Position numbers and translations under genes: made by a program. Shown piece after piece: positions 55,487-64,000 of a stretch of 64,000 bases of DNA (positions within the stretch are counted from its first letter, which is position 1; every line of letters starts with the position of its first letter). Where the stretch lies: NCBI GenBank assembly GCA_038878695.1, contig JAVZVD010000003.1, positions 62,001 through 126,000 on the forward strand, read 5' to 3'. The stretch comes from Fervidicoccaceae archaeon (GTDB lineage: Archaea > Thermoproteota > Thermoprotei_A > Sulfolobales > Fervidicoccaceae). The notes under the pieces were generated by a model. The model was not told the origin of the DNA and did no database searches. It saw only the letters and a program-made list of their open reading frames with translations.

Positions 55487-57736
55487 CTTTTAGTTCTTTG
55501 TTATTTTGCGATGGAAATCTCAGAGTACTGCAGTGTAAATCTTGACTTTTAGTTCTTTGTTATTTTGCGTCCCACTGAGGCAAAGTTTACCTTACCCCTA
55601 GAAGGCTTTTAGTTCTTTGTTATTTTGCGCCCCCCACATTTTGGAGGTGAGAGGATGAGCACCCTCTTTTAGTTCTTTGTTATTTTGCGGAGGGCCAGGC
55701 CGAGGGTCGAGAGGAAATCACGAACTTTTAGTTCTTTGTTATTTTGCGTCGGCAGATGCTATGCCCTTATCCTATTGATACAATCTTTTAGTTCTTTGTT
55801 ATTTTGCGAAGAGATATGGAAACGTGCTCTGGATTCTCCCCAGCTTTTAGTTCTTTGTTATTTTGCGGGCTGGAGATCCGTGTCCCACCAATAGTAATTG
55901 TCGGCTTTTAGTTCTTTGTTATTTTGCGTCCTCCTCTCCCTCGGTATCGAGACCAAGAGGACCACTTTTAGTTCTTTGTTATTTTGCGCCGTCCTCGATC
56001 CCAGCTCGAGGGACCTCAAGCTCTTTTAGTTCTTTGTTATTTTGCGACGGTATCTGCAATTTTGTGGAGGGGAGCGGGAATGTCTTTTAGTTCTTTGTTA
56101 TTTTGCGACGAGGGCCGCGCGCGCGCTGGGCCTCCCGAGGAGGATCTTTTAGTTCTTTGTTATTTTGCGTCCATCGGCGAGAGCAGCCTCTTGATCAGGT
56201 CGGCCCTTTTAGTTCTTTGTTATTTTGCGACTCCCATGGAGGAACAACGCCAGATGCAGTATATCCTTTTAGTTCTTTGTTATTTTGCGATGTCGGAGAG
56301 CACTTCAAGGAGACGAAAGTCTTCGCTTTTAGTTCTTTGTTATTTTGCGCCGAGGATTCTCTCTCTTAGTCTGGAGAATATCGCCTCTTTTAGTTCTTTG
56401 TTATTTTGCGTGGGCGAGATAAAGGCCCTTCGAGTGACGCGCGACGTCTTTTAGTTCTTTGTTATTTTGCGTTGTGTTTAAACCGATCTCGAAAATTCTC
56501 TCGTTAACTTTTAGTTCTTTGTTATTTTGCGGTTCTTTCTCTCGAGCTCCGCCATCTCAAACAACTCTTTTAGTTCTTTGTTATTTTGCGGGTGGCCACA
56601 TTTCGGGCATCGGACCAATCTCCTCTCTTTTAGTTCTTTGTTATTTTGCGTGCTCTCCCAGATCCTCGGCTGCCCCGTCGGCGAAACTTTTAGTTCTTTG
56701 TTATTTTGCGTCGGGATCTCCCAGTCGTCGGTCAAGGAAATATTGTCTTTTAGTTCTTTGTTATTTTGCGATAGGCCCCCGAGGAGGGTCCCCCGGAGGA
56801 GGGATCCCTTTTAGTTCTTTGTTATTTTGCGGATCTTGTTGACTCTAAATGAGGTAGCGGAGGAGCTCTTTTAGTTCTTTGTTATTTTGCGTTTGCGACA
56901 GCTCGGGCACGTGATGTAGATCAACCTCTTTTAGTTCTTTGTTATTTTGCGTAAGGGAATAGATTATGAGTACGCGCGGCGCCGGCTCTTTTAGTTCTTT
57001 GTTATTTTGCGCGAAATGTGGACACACCTGGCACACGCGCTCGCGCACTTTTAGTTCTTTGTTATTTTGCGCGCAGGGCCCGCTCGAGCTCCTCATCGCT
57101 TGGGGCCGCTTTTAGTTCTTTGTTATTTTGCGCGGGCCCGCGAGACGGCCGCAACGGACTCAGGCTCACTTTTAGTTCTTTGTTATTTTGCGTTACAAAC
57201 CTCTTGAAGGCTCGCACGGCCTCGGAAATCCGCTTTTAGTTCTTTGTTATTTTGCGTAGCCGGAGAGGTTTACGTGGTGCCCCCGGGATTTGTCTTTTAG
57301 TTCTTTGTTATTTTGCGAGCTCCTAAAGAGGTCGGGGAGAGTCGCGGGCTTCGCTTTTAGTTCTTTGTTATTTTGCGAGAAGAGACGAGTTGAGAACGGA
57401 GCCCCCCGAGGACTTTTAGTTCTTTGTTATTTTGCGCTTTAGCAGCCACGATGCCTCCTTCTCCTGAATCATCTTTTAGTTCTTTGTTATTTTGCGCCGG
57501 ATTAACTCCTTGTTTCAAGAGGTAAGTTACAAACTTTTAGTTCTTTGTTATTTTGCGTGATCGGCCGGATCCTCGGGATGAATCCTCGGGTCTTTTAGTT
57601 CTTTGTTATTTTGCGTTAACCGAAAAACAAGAAACGCCGCGCGCGGTACAATACTTTTAGTTCTTTGTTATTTTGCGTGCGTTACGTGGTGATTTGTCGA
57701 TCGAGAGCGATCCTTTTAGTTCTTTGTTATTTTGCG
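55487..57736 (-). CRISPR. CRISPR array, 38 repeats and 37 spacers
   Basis: The 24-base repeat (on the plus strand starting CTTTTAGTTC and ending TTATTTTGCG) occurs 38 times, from 55487 to 57713, all copies identical by eye. Spacers are 34-37 bases, giving a period of about 60. The transcribed strand is probably minus: read that way the repeat ends ACTAAAAG, close to the ATTGAAAG handle of many archaeal crRNAs, it lies on the same strand as cas6 just upstream, and a TATA box with the correct direction lies before 57736. The opposite direction cannot be excluded, because tataaaaa at 55468-55475 faces the array from the other end. Confidence 0.98.
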
Positions 57737-57852
57737 AGGTCTCTCGCGTGGCGCTTTTCATCTACTCTCCCGTTCTCACCCAAGGTTTATAGAGGTTCGG
57801 GCGAGAGGGCGAGCCCCGCCCACGAGAATCGACGCGAGTAGCTCACCTCCGT
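57737..57852 (-). promoter_or_regulatory. Probable CRISPR leader and promoter
   Basis: This 116-base gap separates the cas6 stop from the array. On the minus strand it contains cctctataaacctt (57781-57794), a good TATA box whose transcript would begin about 25 bases before the first repeat. The rest is GC-rich. Leader function is inferred from position. Confidence 0.6.
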
Positions 57853-58713
57853 TTATCTTTTGGTTTCTATTTTTATTTTTTGTGGTGCTATGGTTATTGT
57901 TCCAAAGCCATTGGCTCTACTTGCCCCTATCCCGTAGATCCTTGCTGTTTGTAGCGTTCTCTTGACTATCTCCTCGCACCTCTTCTCTCTTGTTAAGACG
58001 ATGTACTTCGCTTTCGCTGTTAGTGTCGGCTCTCGGTTGTTGTCGTAGTTCACGAACACGGCTTTCTGCTTGGTTGAGTAGTGCTCCGCTAGGCAGGACT
58101 CGAGCTCCACCGCGGCTTGAAATGCTTTGTGAGGATCGAGGCTGAGCGTCCCCTGCGCAATCATGTAAGGGACCCAGAAGAACACGCCCGGGCTGGTGGT
58201 AAACCTTCTGACGTGCTGTGTTGGCACTAGCGGGTGTGGAAGCAGCGCTGGGCTCAGGGTCCTCACGACTATAGTTTTCAGTTTTTCTTCTAGTTCTTTG
58301 TTATCTTGTGGAGTGTGTATGCTGGCATCCTCTACCGTATAGCTCACGACCGCGTTCTCGAACTTCAGCCTGGTCCTGACCCCCTCAATCTGCTTGAACC
58401 GGTTGTAGAGCAACCTGACGGTATCGCCGTTCGCTCCGACCTCAACGACGTACTCGCCCCTTAGAAGCACCGGCCTCAGTTCTTTGTTATTTCGTGTCAC
58501 CTCGTAGACTGGTATGACCGAGCTGTTTCCACTTAGAGGCGGGCTCACCCTTAGGAGCTTGAAGAACCCCTTTGACGGTCTGAAGAGGGGCTCAAGCTCC
58601 GGAGCCTCCGTAAGCACCAACGTCTTGGTCAGCTTGCCCGTGTAGTTGTAGATGTAGCCGTTACTCTCCATGTAGACTCTGAGCGCAAGTACCGCGCCGT
58701 CGGCGACGCTCAA
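57853..58713 (-). CDS. cas6: CRISPR pre-crRNA endoribonuclease Cas6, carrying repeat-derived segments
   Basis: Cuts the pre-crRNA within each repeat to make crRNAs. The C-terminal YGIGASRANGFGTITI is the Gly-rich loop of Cas6 proteins; the body has the two-RRM character of the family (286 residues). TTG 58713 overlaps the csa3 stop by TTGA. Two segments, residues about 73-80 (VTRNNKEL) and 135-142 (PQDNKEL), are encoded by degenerate copies of the array repeat (58473-58496 and 58287-58310) in the same frame and strand. A third weaker NNRE occurs near residue 223. Catalytic residues vary in this family and I cannot assign them with confidence. Confidence 0.88.
   Translation of the reverse strand: MSVADGAVLALRVYMESNGYIYNYTGKLTKTLVLTEAPELEPLFRPSKGFFKLLRVSPPLSGNSSVIPVYEVTRNNKELRPVLLRGEYVVEVGANGDTVRLLYNRFKQIEGVRTRLKFENAVVSYTVEDASIHTPQDNKELEEKLKTIVVRTLSPALLPHPLVPTQHVRRFTTSPGVFFWVPYMIAQGTLSLDPHKAFQAAVELESCLAEHYSTKQKAVFVNYDNNREPTLTAKAKYIVLTREKRCEEIVKRTLQTARIYGIGASRANGFGTITIAPQKIKIETKR
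58287..58310 (-). repeat. Degenerate CRISPR repeat inside cas6, copy 1
   Basis: 21 of 24 positions match the array repeat, including 14 consecutive bases (58291-58304). It encodes part of PQDNKELEE of Cas6. The three differences lie at repeat positions 4, 19 and 23 (plus-strand orientation). Confidence 0.9.
58473..58496 (-). repeat. Degenerate CRISPR repeat inside cas6, copy 2
   Basis: 18 of 24 positions match, with 15 consecutive identical bases (58478-58492). It encodes RNNKEL of Cas6, in the same phase as copy 1, 186 bases away. Confidence 0.88.
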
Positions 58714-59381
58714 CCGCGCTCACCGCAGAACGCGTAGCGCAGGGCTTCCCCGAGCGGTGTCAGCTCTACGGTATTATCCCTCAGCTGTATCAGCCCCCTC
58801 TTCGCCATCCTCCGCAGCAGCATGTATATCGTTGACGGCGATTTCCCCGCCTCACCGCACGCCTCTTTAACCACGAGGTCTCTCTCAACTCTGTCCCCAA
58901 CCAGACATATCATCCTCAGCTCGCTCCTGCCGACGCAGAGCCTCACGGTTTCGAGGCTCAGGGCTACATCGTATAGCCCGTCCTCCCTCGCCGCGTGAAC
59001 CGCGAGCTCTACGCCCTTCACTAGCTCTCTGTAGATGAGGGACGCGTAGATGACAACGAGACCGAGATACCTCATCCCGCTACCGAGGGACATCACTAGC
59101 CTCTCGGGTCTCAGCTCCCTTAGCGCGTCCACGAGAGCTGAGGCGTCTCTACCGAAGTTGTTAGCGTCCAGCACCAGCTCCTTGACCGCTACGCCGGCGG
59201 ACGAGAAGACGCTCTTGACCACGCTAACCGCATTTGAGACCTTCTGCCTCTCGTAATCGCTTCCGCTCAGGCTGTAGACCAAGAGAGCGGTGTCCCCGGG
59301 CTGTAGCCCGACCCTGAATCCAGCCCTGATGACGAGCTTCTCATCAAACCCCACTATGAAGATTGCGAGCTTCATGTTCAT
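58710..59381 (-). CDS. csa3: Csa3-type CARF-domain CRISPR transcription regulator
   Basis: CARF domain plus winged helix; such proteins control cas genes or arrays and may sense cyclic oligoadenylate. The Rossmann-like CARF part (about 1-130) begins LAIFIVGFDEKLVIRAG and contains LVMSLGSGMRYLGLVV, its ligand loop. The winged helix follows (about 165-220: VVKEACGEAGKSPSTIYMLLRRMAKRGLIQLRDN). ATG 59381; ATG 59375 is an alternative. It is divergent from the interference genes and shares a palindromic TATA box with them, so it could control both arms. Confidence 0.88.
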   Translation of the reverse strand: MNMKLAIFIVGFDEKLVIRAGFRVGLQPGDTALLVYSLSGSDYERQKVSNAVSVVKSVFSSAGVAVKELVLDANNFGRDASALVDALRELRPERLVMSLGSGMRYLGLVVIYASLIYRELVKGVELAVHAAREDGLYDVALSLETVRLCVGRSELRMICLVGDRVERDLVVKEACGEAGKSPSTIYMLLRRMAKRGLIQLRDNTVELTPLGEALRYAFCGERG

Positions 59382-59457: not shown

Positions 59458-61299
59458 ATGATGAAGTTACGAAGTCTGATCGAGACCGCCTGTACGCTGT
59501 TCCCCCCATTCATAGGTCTCGTCAGCTGGAAGTACACGATTCCATCCTCCGCTCTCTACCACTCGCTCAGCGTCGCATCGATTGCTGGAGGTATTGCTGA
59601 GTTGCTCACCGACAACGCGGACGAGGTCGAACTAGCTACATATGCCGGTCTAACCCACGACTATTACCAGAAGGGGGATAGCGTTGGACTTACCGTCGGG
59701 AGTGGGGAGGAAATATTAAAGCGCGTTCTCGAAGAGCGCGGCGTCGAGAAAAAGATCGTTGATGTCATAGTTAACGAGGCGACTAGGTACAACGTCGCTG
59801 AGAACCCGGGCATATGGGCTGGCAAGCACCCCGTCGCCGGCCTAAGCATGTGGCTCGCAGATACAATTGCCGGAGCCCCTTCGGCCCTCATTGTCGAGCA
59901 GAGGATAATAGAGCGATCGAGCAGGCTAGACGAGAAGTTGCGGAAGCTGTTGCGATCTCTCAACATATCTGTTTTCTCGGTGCTACTTCCACAGGTGGCG
60001 CTGAGGTCTGGGATATACTCCGAGGTGGTGAGGACCCTCAGCAAGATATCTGCCGTCCCCATACTTGCGAGAGACGGATTAATAGTGGCATCTAACACGG
60101 AGGTACCGCGGATACAGATAGACATCAACGTCTTTAGAGTAGATGCAGAGCAGTACGATATCATCTACGAGAGCGTCAAGAAGCGTGCACCCACACTGTC
60201 AAGAGACACCTTCGATGAGAGGATGCGACGAGAACTTTTCCTCCGCGGCTCCAGCAATAAGATACCTCTCGGTAAGTCCGCACGAGAGCTTCTCCTCAAC
60301 ATAGACTTAGCGAACGTATCGTGGGAGGACAAAGGTTCGGGCTGCAGGTGCGTGTTCTGCGGTCTACCAGTAGTCGAATCTATTCATCCAGCAGTTATCG
60401 GCTACCTTCAGTACGCTTCAAGCAGTATGGAGAGATGGAACACGAGAGCCCCTGCGGTCGGAGTTAACTTGAACTACCTCTTCCGCGGAGACAATTGGCG
60501 CGATTACGGGATTGTTTCCTGCCCCCTCTGCGTTCTAGACGCCTACGAGGTCTACTGTATGATGCACGGTAATAATATCAAGTCGGCTGACTACTTCGCG
60601 GTACTGTACTTCCCCCTACCCACACACTACGAGGTAGCGAGATCGCTGTCAGCTATAGCTCACAGGATACTGTCCACAGCTACCTCACGAGGCGATGGGG
60701 AGAGCTTTGTCAGCTTAGTTGAAGAGTCCTATATTGACCCCGAGAAATACGCTGAACACGTTACGGAGTACACCAAGAGTACAGATGAATCAATACTGGT
60801 TGACTCGACGTGGGCGTTACACTTCGAAGTGATTCCACAGATAGACGGAGAGCTTGAAACGATGGCCACCTGTCTATCTAGCCTCGCAAGGGTTATCCTG
60901 TTCACTGGTGTATACCCGGTTAAGTTTTCGAACAAGATAGATCCCCTAACGGAGAGGAGGTTGCTGAGCCCAGCCTACCCCCTATACGACTTAGACCCTG
61001 CGAGTAAGGAGGTGAGGGATCAAACACCCCTCTTAGTCGCTCTGCTATCAATTATCGACAGCCTCGACGCCAAGCTGAGCGCTCGCAGAGGCACGAAACT
61101 AACAGACGACAGGACCAAGCTCGTCATGGAGTACCTGAGGTATCCGTATCTTATGCATAGAGACCTGCTGTTGAAGCATAGTGTGGGGAGAACCGTGCTG
61201 TCTACCTACCTTGAGTTTAGGGAAAACCCGGTCAGCCTCTTCAAGCAGGCTCGAGCCCCTCGCCCATCACGTAGCCCTAGGTCGGGCACGTGGGGGTAA
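59458..61299 (+). CDS. cas10d: Type I-D Cas10d (Csc3) with N-terminal HD nuclease domain, short form
   Basis: Large subunit of the I-D effector, which finds the PAM and in this subtype carries the HD nuclease that degrades target DNA. The HD residues are visible: H35 in ALYHSLS, H67-D68 in LTHDYY, and a distal H/D pair in GKHPVAGLSMWLADTIAG. A zinc site uses CRCVFCG and CPLC near residues 302-358. No GGDD cyclase motif is seen, as expected for Cas10d. ATG 59458 has ggag 5 bases before it. With 613 residues it is much shorter than cyanobacterial Csc3 of over 900, and the missing C-terminal part may be the next gene. Confidence 0.88.
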   Translation: MMKLRSLIETACTLFPPFIGLVSWKYTIPSSALYHSLSVASIAGGIAELLTDNADEVELATYAGLTHDYYQKGDSVGLTVGSGEEILKRVLEERGVEKKIVDVIVNEATRYNVAENPGIWAGKHPVAGLSMWLADTIAGAPSALIVEQRIIERSSRLDEKLRKLLRSLNISVFSVLLPQVALRSGIYSEVVRTLSKISAVPILARDGLIVASNTEVPRIQIDINVFRVDAEQYDIIYESVKKRAPTLSRDTFDERMRRELFLRGSSNKIPLGKSARELLLNIDLANVSWEDKGSGCRCVFCGLPVVESIHPAVIGYLQYASSSMERWNTRAPAVGVNLNYLFRGDNWRDYGIVSCPLCVLDAYEVYCMMHGNNIKSADYFAVLYFPLPTHYEVARSLSAIAHRILSTATSRGDGESFVSLVEESYIDPEKYAEHVTEYTKSTDESILVDSTWALHFEVIPQIDGELETMATCLSSLARVILFTGVYPVKFSNKIDPLTERRLLSPAYPLYDLDPASKEVRDQTPLLVALLSIIDSLDAKLSARRGTKLTDDRTKLVMEYLRYPYLMHRDLLLKHSVGRTVLSTYLEFRENPVSLFKQARAPRPSRSPRSGTWG

Positions 61300-61328: not shown

Positions 61329-61802
61329 GTGAGTGAACCCTCTCTAGATGAGAAAACGAAAAGCGTGTTAGAAGCCCTAGGGGTGAAAAACGTGTCCAAA
61401 GCTACGAGGGAGCAGGTAGTGCTAGCTTTAGGCAGGTTACTTTCAGTTAAAGCGTCTAGGGGGGCATCAGTACACGAGGTAACCAAGGAGGTTAGGAGAG
61501 CGCTGGAGCTAGCGCTGAGGTCACCGCTGATTAGAACCGTCGACGAGGCTCTAGTCAGCGTGGTGTACACCAACCCACCGTTTAAGAGCGACGCGTTGAA
61601 CAGAGCTTACAGAGAGTTGTTGAGGAAACTGTTGATCGAGACGGTAGAGTTGGCCAAAGGGCTATCGCTGATGTGGAGAAGGCGGTCGGTGAACCTAACT
61701 GTTGAGAACCTCTACAATATAGCCACCGCTAGCGAGACGTTCGAATATAAGAAAAAAGTATCCGAGGTCCTGGAGGAGAGTATAGGAGAGGAGGTAGAAT
61801 GA
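61329..61802 (+). CDS. Small helical protein, candidate I-D small subunit Cas11d
   Basis: 157 residues, almost all helical (ATREQVVLALGRLLSV, VHEVTKEVRRALELALRS, ALNRAYRELLRKLLIETVELAKGLSLMW). It sits between cas10d and csc2, with the csc2 ATG overlapping its stop by 4 bases. In I-D systems studied elsewhere the small subunit Cas11d is translated from inside the 3' end of cas10d; here cas10d is short and this independent gene occupies that place. Assignment rests on position, size and helical character. GTG 61329 is the preferred start; the frame is open back to 61290. Confidence 0.6.
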   Translation: MSEPSLDEKTKSVLEALGVKNVSKATREQVVLALGRLLSVKASRGASVHEVTKEVRRALELALRSPLIRTVDEALVSVVYTNPPFKSDALNRAYRELLRKLLIETVELAKGLSLMWRRRSVNLTVENLYNIATASETFEYKKKVSEVLEESIGEEVE

Positions 61803-62959
61803 GTCAGCAGCTCAAGAATCTGTCTGAGCTCCTGAAGGAGAAAAGCAGCTATCTGAGAAACCCGAATGAGCAGGATAGAATATTCGCAAAAGGCAAGAAA
61901 ATAGAGGTAATATACGCTGTGGTAGGCAAGGGTATTCCGCTCTTCAGAACCGAAGGAGCCGGTGATGTAACAACCATCGGTATCACTCTAAGGAAGGAGA
62001 GCTCCACGCCGTCGGAGGGCGGACACGACGCTAACAAATCATACGTAGAAGTGCCTGCCATACTGCCAGAGAAGATACAGGCGAAGCTCAGGAGGAGGAT
62101 GCTGGAAATACTAAGGAGCGAGTTCAACGATGAAGTCAAGAAGCAGGTGAAGAGGTACAGGGAGCTAGGGTTCAATAAGTTGGGAGAGGACGGCTCCTGG
62201 AACTGCTTCATCATGCCCCCCAGCGGTGAGGGAGAGACAGACCTAGGGATGTGCGGGTTCTGCCCGGCGTGCAACATCCTCGGAGCGATAATAACAGAGA
62301 ATGAACACGGGCTTGCATCGACATCGTACGGCATCAAGAGCAGAGTGGTCCACGACATAGCGTTCGCCACGGTTCCCTACGAGAAGTGCGTAGTCGAGTT
62401 AACTCATAATAAGGTCGGCGATGGGGTGAGCTACACCGGTAGGAGCTTATACGAGGAGCCTCACATAGTGCCAGGGACCGTCTTCGTAGGTAAGCTCGCG
62501 ATGTACGATGTCACGGAGAGGGAGGCGAAGCTAGTGCTACACTCGCTGGCGACGATAAGCAGGATGGGGGGCGGTGAAACGAAGTACGGCTCCGTGCAGG
62601 TGATAATCGTTGGGCTGAGAGCGGGCGATAGGGAAACCATTAGCAGCTACGATATAGCTAGACACGTACTGGAGAAAACCGGAGGCGCGCTGGTCGAGCC
62701 AGAGGTGGTTGTCAAGGAGGTTGCTAACTACATAAAGGGTAAGGGGTTTGATGTCGTGATCGACGAAAAGGCGGGGATCGACAGCCTAGACACGGTGGCG
62801 GCCGTCTCTGACGATGAGATAGCTAAAATATGGGGAGAGGACAACTACTGGTACTCTGACAACGTAGTAAAGTATATCGCTAGAGCAGAGCCCAAGACAG
62901 GGAAAGGCGGGAAGAAGGAGAAGAAGTCTAAGGGAAAAGGTAAAGAGGAGGCTCGATGA
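61799..62959 (+). CDS. csc2: Type I-D backbone subunit Csc2 (Cas7)
   Basis: Forms the filament that holds the crRNA along the spacer. The start LLKEKSSYLRNPNEQDRIFAKGKKIEVIYAVVGKGIPLFRTEG and the cysteine pair region MCGFCPACNILG near residue 160 match Csc2. GGGETKYGSVQV and a Lys-rich tail (KKEKKSKGKGKEEAR) complete it. 386 residues. It overlaps its neighbours on both sides by ATGA. Confidence 0.93.
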   Translation: MSQQLKNLSELLKEKSSYLRNPNEQDRIFAKGKKIEVIYAVVGKGIPLFRTEGAGDVTTIGITLRKESSTPSEGGHDANKSYVEVPAILPEKIQAKLRRRMLEILRSEFNDEVKKQVKRYRELGFNKLGEDGSWNCFIMPPSGEGETDLGMCGFCPACNILGAIITENEHGLASTSYGIKSRVVHDIAFATVPYEKCVVELTHNKVGDGVSYTGRSLYEEPHIVPGTVFVGKLAMYDVTEREAKLVLHSLATISRMGGGETKYGSVQVIIVGLRAGDRETISSYDIARHVLEKTGGALVEPEVVVKEVANYIKGKGFDVVIDEKAGIDSLDTVAAVSDDEIAKIWGEDNYWYSDNVVKYIARAEPKTGKGGKKEKKSKGKGKEEAR

Positions 62960-63678
62960 TCGCCAACGAGAGGTACAGCGTCGATGAGCTGAGGTTCTAC
63001 GTAGTGGAGTTAGAGCTACACAGCATCATGTGGTTCTCAACCATAGCCCAGCCGCACCTCAAAACCTTCGTCCAGACGCCGCTACCATTGGTGCACAACT
63101 ACCCTCTGGTGCTGGCGCTACAGGGACAAATAGTCGAGGGGTCGTACATTTCTAAGTACAACGAGTACAAGAGGGTTGGACCGCCGTCTACCATGTTCTC
63201 GGAGGCGATGGTTTATGCCTACCCGATGCTACTCGATAGAGTGTTCTACAAGAAGCTTCTGCTGAGCATGTCCGAGTCCGACTACCTGGTCTACAAACAG
63301 CAGACAAGGCTAGCCGTACCTATCATGGCTACGTACAATGCCTTCGCCCCGGGCACGAGAGGTAAAACTGTGGTCGTGGTCCCGAGGGACAGAGGGCTAC
63401 CCAGGGAGCTCTACCTGAGACTCGGGGCAAAGAGGTACGGCGTGTGGAGGACAACCTACGTCCAGGAAGCACGTGTCGAAGCAGTGGACCGCCCCGTAGC
63501 CGTGTCCTCGCCTTTCAACGTAGCCGATGTCCCGCCCGAGACCGTGAGTAGCAGTCTCGTCGTGCTCAAGCACTATGCTGGAGACATAGCCTTATCCGGG
63601 GTCTTCACCAAAGCTCTCGAGATACGCACCAATAGGGAGAGGATCCTCAAGCCCATACCCTTTTTCATCTCCACCTAA
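62956..63678 (+). CDS. csc1: Type I-D subunit Csc1 (Cas5)
   Basis: Cas5-type protein that caps the 5' end of the crRNA in the I-D complex. The start YVVELELHSIMWFSTIAQPHLKTFVQTPLPLVHNYPLVLALQG has the typical Cas5/Csc1 first strand and loop; a C-terminal RRM-like part follows with TNRERILKPIPFF near the end. 240 residues. ATG overlaps csc2 by ATGA and the cas3 start follows after 18 bases. Confidence 0.9.
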   Translation: MIANERYSVDELRFYVVELELHSIMWFSTIAQPHLKTFVQTPLPLVHNYPLVLALQGQIVEGSYISKYNEYKRVGPPSTMFSEAMVYAYPMLLDRVFYKKLLLSMSESDYLVYKQQTRLAVPIMATYNAFAPGTRGKTVVVVPRDRGLPRELYLRLGAKRYGVWRTTYVQEARVEAVDRPVAVSSPFNVADVPPETVSSSLVVLKHYAGDIALSGVFTKALEIRTNRERILKPIPFFIST

Positions 63679-63696: not shown

Positions 63697-64000
63697 GTGT
63701 ACGAGCACGAGGTCATGCTCACCCCCGTCTACGTTGAATCGTCCAGCGAGCAACTCGGCGATATAAGAGTTAGAAAGTTTCAGAAAGAGGTAGCCGACGT
63801 CACGGACGGGTTCGTGGTTCTATCCGCCCCCACAGGCTCCGGTAAAACGGCGACGCTCCTAACGGACGGGGAGCGCGGCGTATCGATTGGGCTGTACCCC
63901 AGTAACGAGTTACTGCGTAGCCAGGTGGCGGGGTTGCACAACTTCATCGTGAACCACATCGGGATGCAACCAAAGGAAACGCTGCTCTACGACTACTGCA
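63697..64000 (+). CDS. cas3: Cas3 helicase of type I-D (Cas3'), truncated by the window end
   Basis: The frame is open to the last base. RKFQKEVADVTDGFVVLSAPTGSGKTATLLTDGE contains the Q-motif-like region and Walker A of a superfamily 2 helicase, and GLYPSNELLRSQ is motif Ia. No HD domain lies before the helicase, as expected for I-D, where HD is in Cas10d. GTG 63697 has ggagg 9 bases upstream. It follows csc1 directly. Adaptation genes, if present, would be further right. Confidence 0.88.
   Translation, partial: MYEHEVMLTPVYVESSSEQLGDIRVRKFQKEVADVTDGFVVLSAPTGSGKTATLLTDGERGVSIGLYPSNELLRSQVAGLHNFIVNHIGMQPKETLLYDYC

Follow-up and report, generated by a model that had tools for sequence, protein, structure and literature searches.

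The cas6 gene of a type I-D CRISPR-Cas locus, situated at the end of the window analysed here (the whole stretch of DNA, 64,000 nucleotides long), harbors two embedded copies of the repeat of its neighboring CRISPR array, and these copies are a real, non-chance and unusual feature. They almost certainly came into cas6 from a CRISPR array or an array-like repeat, to judge from the sequences of related loci, and the resulting sites are more likely by-products of repeat copying than a selected switch.

Organization of the locus

The host, an archaeon of the GTDB order containing Sulfolobus, has a genome of 1.11 Mb with 60% GC, in which csa3, cas6, a leader and an array are found, in this order, opposite cas10d-cas11d-cas7d-cas5d-cas3d. 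The features in the window are the following.

55487..57736, minus strand: CRISPR array 1, 38 identical 24-nt repeats, pre-crRNA on the minus strand
57737..57852, minus strand: leader of array 1, 116 nt, matching that of array 2 at 116/116 positions
57853..58713, minus strand: cas6, pre-crRNA endoribonuclease, 286 aa (PADLOC Cas6, E 1e-26; predicted model matches the solved Cas6 4ilm/4ill)
58287..58310, minus strand: embedded copy 1, CACAAGATAACAAAGAACTAGAAG, 21/24 to the array repeat, gene nt 404-427
58473..58496, minus strand: embedded copy 2, CACGAAATAACAAAGAACTGAGGC, 18/24 to the array repeat, gene nt 218-241
58710..59381, minus strand: csa3, CARF-domain regulator (Pfam Csa3_N, NCBIfam cas_HTH, PADLOC Csa3)
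59461..61299, plus strand: putative Cas10d-like large subunit with HD domain
61332..61802, plus strand: candidate small-subunit-like (Cas11d-like) gene, named from its position
61799..62959, plus strand: cas7d/csc2 (Pfam Csc2, E 5e-37; NCBIfam cas_Csc2)
62956..63678, plus strand: cas5d/csc1 (PADLOC Cas5d, E 4e-32)
63697..63999, plus strand: cas3d helicase, 5' portion, the gene continuing past the window (PADLOC Cas3d, E 1e-10)

The assignment to type I-D is given by the profile matches of cas7d, cas5d and cas3d, together with a putative cas10d recognized by an HD match that is weak (Pfam, below the curated cut-off), by its place beside cas7d and by its counterpart in the related genome G171; the Cas11d-like gene has no profile match in Pfam, NCBIfam or PADLOC. 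The csa3 gene is located upstream of cas6 and overlaps it, and both are probably carried by one transcript. In turn, cas6 lies directly upstream of the leader and array 1, on the strand of the pre-crRNA, and the first base of the leader is the one directly after the cas6 stop codon, with a TATAAA starting 55 nt before the first repeat. Because this leader with its TATA box is found at the high-coordinate end of array 1, the pre-crRNA is expected on the minus strand, as the first-pass annotation had predicted, and a second array located outside the window (C3:129900, 18 repeats, same repeat) lends support, since its identical leader (C3:129784-129899) is oriented to its repeats in the same manner. 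The complete identity of the two leaders points to duplication or gene conversion of the leader in the recent past. Read in the pre-crRNA sense (minus strand), the array repeat is CGCAAAATAACAAAGAACTAAAAG. Bacterial promoter and terminator scans are uninformative here, the host being an archaeon.

Two copies of the repeat within cas6

Copy 1 encodes Cas6 residues 135-143 (PQDNKELEE) and copy 2 residues 73-81 (TRNNKELRP); both are sense to the pre-crRNA, share the cas6 reading frame and contain uninterrupted runs identical to the array repeat, of 14 bases in copy 1 and 15 in copy 2. Coordinates, match counts, runs, frame and strand all agree with those given in the first-pass annotation. When every position of the genome was scored against the 24-nt repeat on both strands (2.2 million positions), the non-array sites numbered 82 at 15/24, 22 at 16, three at 17, two at 18 and one at 21. 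Thus, only three non-array sites with at least 18/24 matches exist in 1.11 Mb, and two of them, the sole 21/24 site and one of the two 18/24 sites, are found within cas6. Given the codon usage of cas6 itself, the expected number of sites per gene is 1.2e-6 for at least 21/24 and 2e-3 for at least 18/24. The 13-base core ATAACAAAGAACT is likewise confined to the two arrays and the two cas6 occurrences, and the copies use AT-rich codons that are rare in this genome (product about 1e-4 per copy). Identity beyond chance and a same-strand core comprising the cut site mark both as sequence derived from a CRISPR repeat. A third, decayed copy was considered at the 3' end of cas6, where an A-rich tail encodes APQKIKIETKR, and was rejected as not significant (shuffle p about 0.08-0.09).

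Placement in the Cas6 protein

The product is recognized as a Cas6 by its PADLOC profile, its two-domain RAMP fold and an intact G-rich loop (GIGASRANGFG), and its AlphaFold model (mean pLDDT 82) best matches 4ilm/4ill, the solved structures of S. solfataricus Cas6 together with a non-structured repeat. In this model copy 2 (73-81) occupies a hairpin turn and the strand that follows, and copy 1 (135-143) the linker between the two domains. The array repeat has a single open sense frame, encoding QNNKELK, and it is because this frame spells them that NNKEL and DNKEL appear in Cas6. Of the three antisense frames, two are likewise open but specify hydrophobic peptides, and this hydrophobicity may explain their absence from surface loops.

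Relatives and the direction of copying

The named relatives were found by a pattern scan of the genome contigs, in which a Cas6 protein search had found none. The nearest intact ortholog belongs to G171 (uncultured Sulfolobales archaeon, CALIBI010000058), with a Cas6 54% identical, the same csa3-cas6-leader-array layout as in the window and the repeat CTTGAAATAACAAAGAACTAAAAG; in Terraquivivens tengchongensis (G214) the Cas6 is 48% identical and the arrays carry CTCTAAATAACAAAGAACTAAAAG. The nearest homologs, those of G003 and G156, have lost the relevant part of cas6. The repeat core is common to arrays or repeats of G171, G214, G031 and G003. Nevertheless, both copies are absent from cas6 of G171 and G214, though the arrays of these genomes share the core, and because of this the core is older than the embedding, and transfer therefore almost certainly ran from array-like repeats into cas6. 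Of the two origins that the first-pass annotation had offered, this comparison supports a repeat copied into cas6 and contradicts a repeat born from it. At copy 1 the window Cas6 is about 5 residues longer than those of G171 and G214, and at copy 2 it is 4 residues shorter.

The copies are likewise missing from ten Cas6 of more distant relatives whose alignment covers both sites, and with G171 and G214 included they do not constitute a conserved regulatory element of cas6 mRNA. None of these ten further orthologs has NNKEL at the same places, a motif that in genomes with unrelated repeats would, by the first-pass annotation, have spoken against a link between repeat and gene. Further cas6 loci with an array nearby were screened as well and revealed no other sense copy of at least 18/24 inside cas6.

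The word "degenerate", used for the copies at first, fits them in part only, since some of their differences from the array repeat are natural repeat variants of relatives. Copy 1 matches 23 of 24 bases of a solitary repeat, CACAAAATAACAAAGAACTAGAAG, at a contig edge (L244:1-24, G011:C11), and 22 of 24 of a solitary repeat in G003, while copy 2 has A2 and G4 in common with the G003 repeat TACGAAATAACAAAGAACTAAAAG. Based on these sequences, the copies may preserve older or related repeat variants and not simple decay. Many Cas6 homologs have L-[KR]-P where copy 2 ends, and the 3' bases CTGAGGC of this copy are attributed to these ancestral residues; only about 19 of its bases look imported. The G011 repeat adjoins tRNA-like sequence.

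Repeat-like sequence elsewhere

Two solitary repeats are found outside the arrays of the same genome, one a full repeat with 23/24 bases and a 5-nt insertion (C2:168698-168726), the other 3 kb away (C2:171664-171687), and the pair represents both repeat types of the genome; copying outside arrays therefore occurs regardless of cas6. A different repeat, GAAGCAATCAGAAAAGACTGAAAG, stands once directly behind array 2 (C3:130976-130999) and is also found in a 5-repeat array (C3:132286-132613). Since the genome yielded no second I-D cas6, a cognate cas6 for the GAAGCAATCAGAAAAGACTGAAAG array is not in view. More than one cause thus places repeats outside arrays in this group.

The cases in related genomes were met by looking around, with no planned test, and count as leads. 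The 12-mer AATAACAAAGAA of G171 has one non-array occurrence in that genome, at the start codon of csa3 (L056:9098), the first gene of its csa3-cas6 pair; the surrounding sequence, TTGAATAACAAAGAA (L056:9094-9117), is near the G171 repeat with one base missing. Also in G171, a second cas10d takes its stop codon from a solitary second-type repeat, GAAGCAATAAGAAAAGACTGAAGG (L056:16111-16134, 23/24), whose last base immediately precedes the ATG of the gene that follows. In decayed loci of G003 (L024:10149-10172) and G156 (L057:4538-4561), in which only the 3' part of cas6 is left (81% and 72% identical to that of the window, respectively), the cas6 stop lies inside a sense repeat of 20/24. All these repeat-like sites overlapping cas coding sequence are sense, and they are suggestive as parallels to the copies in cas6. 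A non-array occurrence of the 12-mer in G214 was taken as chance, being within a small zinc-ribbon-like ORF of ribosomal-protein type, and a solitary repeat on L103 was set aside, as it lies in a decayed, unrelated region. In viral contigs the repeat core was met only 15 times, each time as a single, scattered match.

Origin and possible function of the copies

We consider it moderately probable that pieces of an array repeat, or of a close relative of it, were copied into cas6 and have been tolerated there, more as by-products than as a switch. The non-chance match, the repeat core predating the embedding and the placement in variable regions are observed; the steps joining them are proposed. 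Ectopic recombination or template switching next to the array would have carried the pieces into the gene. Their toleration would be due to the surface regions of Cas6 that they affect, one a hairpin loop and the other an inter-domain linker, and to the sole open sense frame in which they are read. Each cas6 message thereby has two repeat-like sites, predicted to be single-stranded, in which the Cas6 cut site is intact, and Cas6 can probably bind or cut its own mRNA; in the cell this might act as negative feedback whenever Cas6 is in excess over pre-crRNA. Against copying that is blind to function stands the presence of two independent copies in one gene, both sense, though cas6 does adjoin the array; in addition, the third codon positions kept in the copy cores hint at a constraint on the RNA.

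Selected autoregulation, in which free Cas6 would bind and cut its own (csa3-)cas6 message at the embedded repeats, is a possible alternative that we regard as rather doubtful. Abundant pre-crRNA would occupy Cas6 and the cas6 message would survive, and the repeat-like sites would have been recruited or kept, likewise those at the csa3 start and the cas10d/cas11d junction of G171. In favor of this proposal, both copies are sense, with the bases around the canonical Cas6 cut site intact (in copy 1 the cut is expected between the 16th and 17th base), and structure prediction ranks both among the most open stretches of the message (96th-99th percentile at 37 C and 89th-99th at 75 C). Of the third codon positions, the ten within bases 5-19 (five in each copy) all retain the base of the repeat and only two of the six beyond this span do so, a count biased by the choice of sites through their core and one that recent copying would also produce. 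The sequences at the csa3 start and at the cas10d stop and next start in G171 point in the same direction, as does Cas6-3 of S. solfataricus, which cuts repeat-like RNA encoded near its own gene. Conversely, the copies are known from one genome, being absent in cas6 of G171, G214 and the more distant relatives; they are found well inside the coding sequence, away from the ribosome site; toward the 5' end of the repeat, one or both copies depart from it at bases 2, 4 and 6; and the hydrophilic sense peptide is perhaps simply better tolerated in loops. Self-regulation of Cas6 through the embedded repeats is plausible. A broader proposal, that Cas6 of this archaeal I-D lineage controls its own production by cutting repeat-derived coding sites and that the lineage repeatedly recruits repeats into cas transcripts, appears unlikely; the csa3 start, the cas10d/cas11d junction and the cas6 stop codon would then be recruited control elements read by Cas6.

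It is very improbable that the copies act as guides in the manner of CreR or crRNA, each cut copy releasing a 5'-handle RNA that would direct Cascade to a cas promoter. The resulting handles would be ACTAGAAG and ACTGAGGC, and CreR RNAs do regulate cas operons of other type I systems (PMC12737573), but the handle of copy 2 is poor, the copies, 186 nt apart, are separated by far more than a spacer, and for the 9-14 bases past each copy the 23-kb cas region offers no second seed match of at least 9 bases. Spacers matching cas6, which would denote self-targeting, were sought and none was found. Finally, that NNKEL/DNKEL is a Cas6 motif, or that A-rich codons resemble the repeat by accident, has in its favor that the L-[KR]-P of many homologs accounts for the CTGAGGC of copy 2, but this deserves next to no credence and is refuted by the site counts given above, unless the assembly is wrong here, as cas6 holds two of the three best non-array matches of the genome and the motif is present in no ortholog.

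Comparison with known systems

The closest parallel is found in S. solfataricus, where Cas6-3 cuts the precursor of ncRNA60 with an efficiency similar to that for array repeats (PMC4041471). By our own count ncRNA60 matches the repeat at only 17 of 25 positions, and because such a precursor is cut, cutting of the cas6 mRNA is plausible. In both cases a repeat-like sequence outside the arrays is located near a cas6 gene, and in S. solfataricus its RNA is processed by that Cas6; nevertheless, ncRNA60 is a less repeat-like, non-coding RNA for which cutting is proven, whereas here the sequence is the coding sequence of cas6 and its cutting is predicted. Standalone repeats and crRNA-like regulatory RNAs (CreR, CreA) in cas loci were reportedly described by Shmakov et al. 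2023. These are likewise solitary repeat copies in CRISPR-cas loci, thought to regulate cas genes, but their action on DNA depends on a guide together with an effector complex, in contrast to the present copies, for which no guide target was found in the cas region and which lie inside a coding gene.

Phage RNA anti-CRISPRs are solitary repeat units bound and cut by Cas6 (PMC10651486), although they are inhibitors carried by phage, whereas the copies described here are chromosomal and belong to the host's own cas6. Rickettsia palindromic elements, of about 150 bp and present in many unrelated coding genes (PMC10969869), are also repeat DNA tolerated in frame within protein genes, but the sequence described here is a CRISPR repeat of 24 nt, and the gene that holds it encodes the enzyme by which it is processed. 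Regulation aside, the copies may both preserve earlier variants of the repeat and show that repeat DNA can exit an array and enter genes.

CRISPR repeats and their processing enzymes co-evolve, and a repeat in the message of the enzyme itself, if functional, would be the simplest loop tying the level of Cas6 to that of uncut pre-crRNA. In the autogenous control of ribosomal proteins or synthetases (e.g. PMC6542539) the mRNA mimics the RNA target of the protein it encodes, an analogy of working in which regulation is established there and proposed here. The known autoregulators of cas genes, CreR and long-form tracrRNA, need a guide and an effector complex, whereas in a self-cutting loop, if true, Cas6 alone would suffice.
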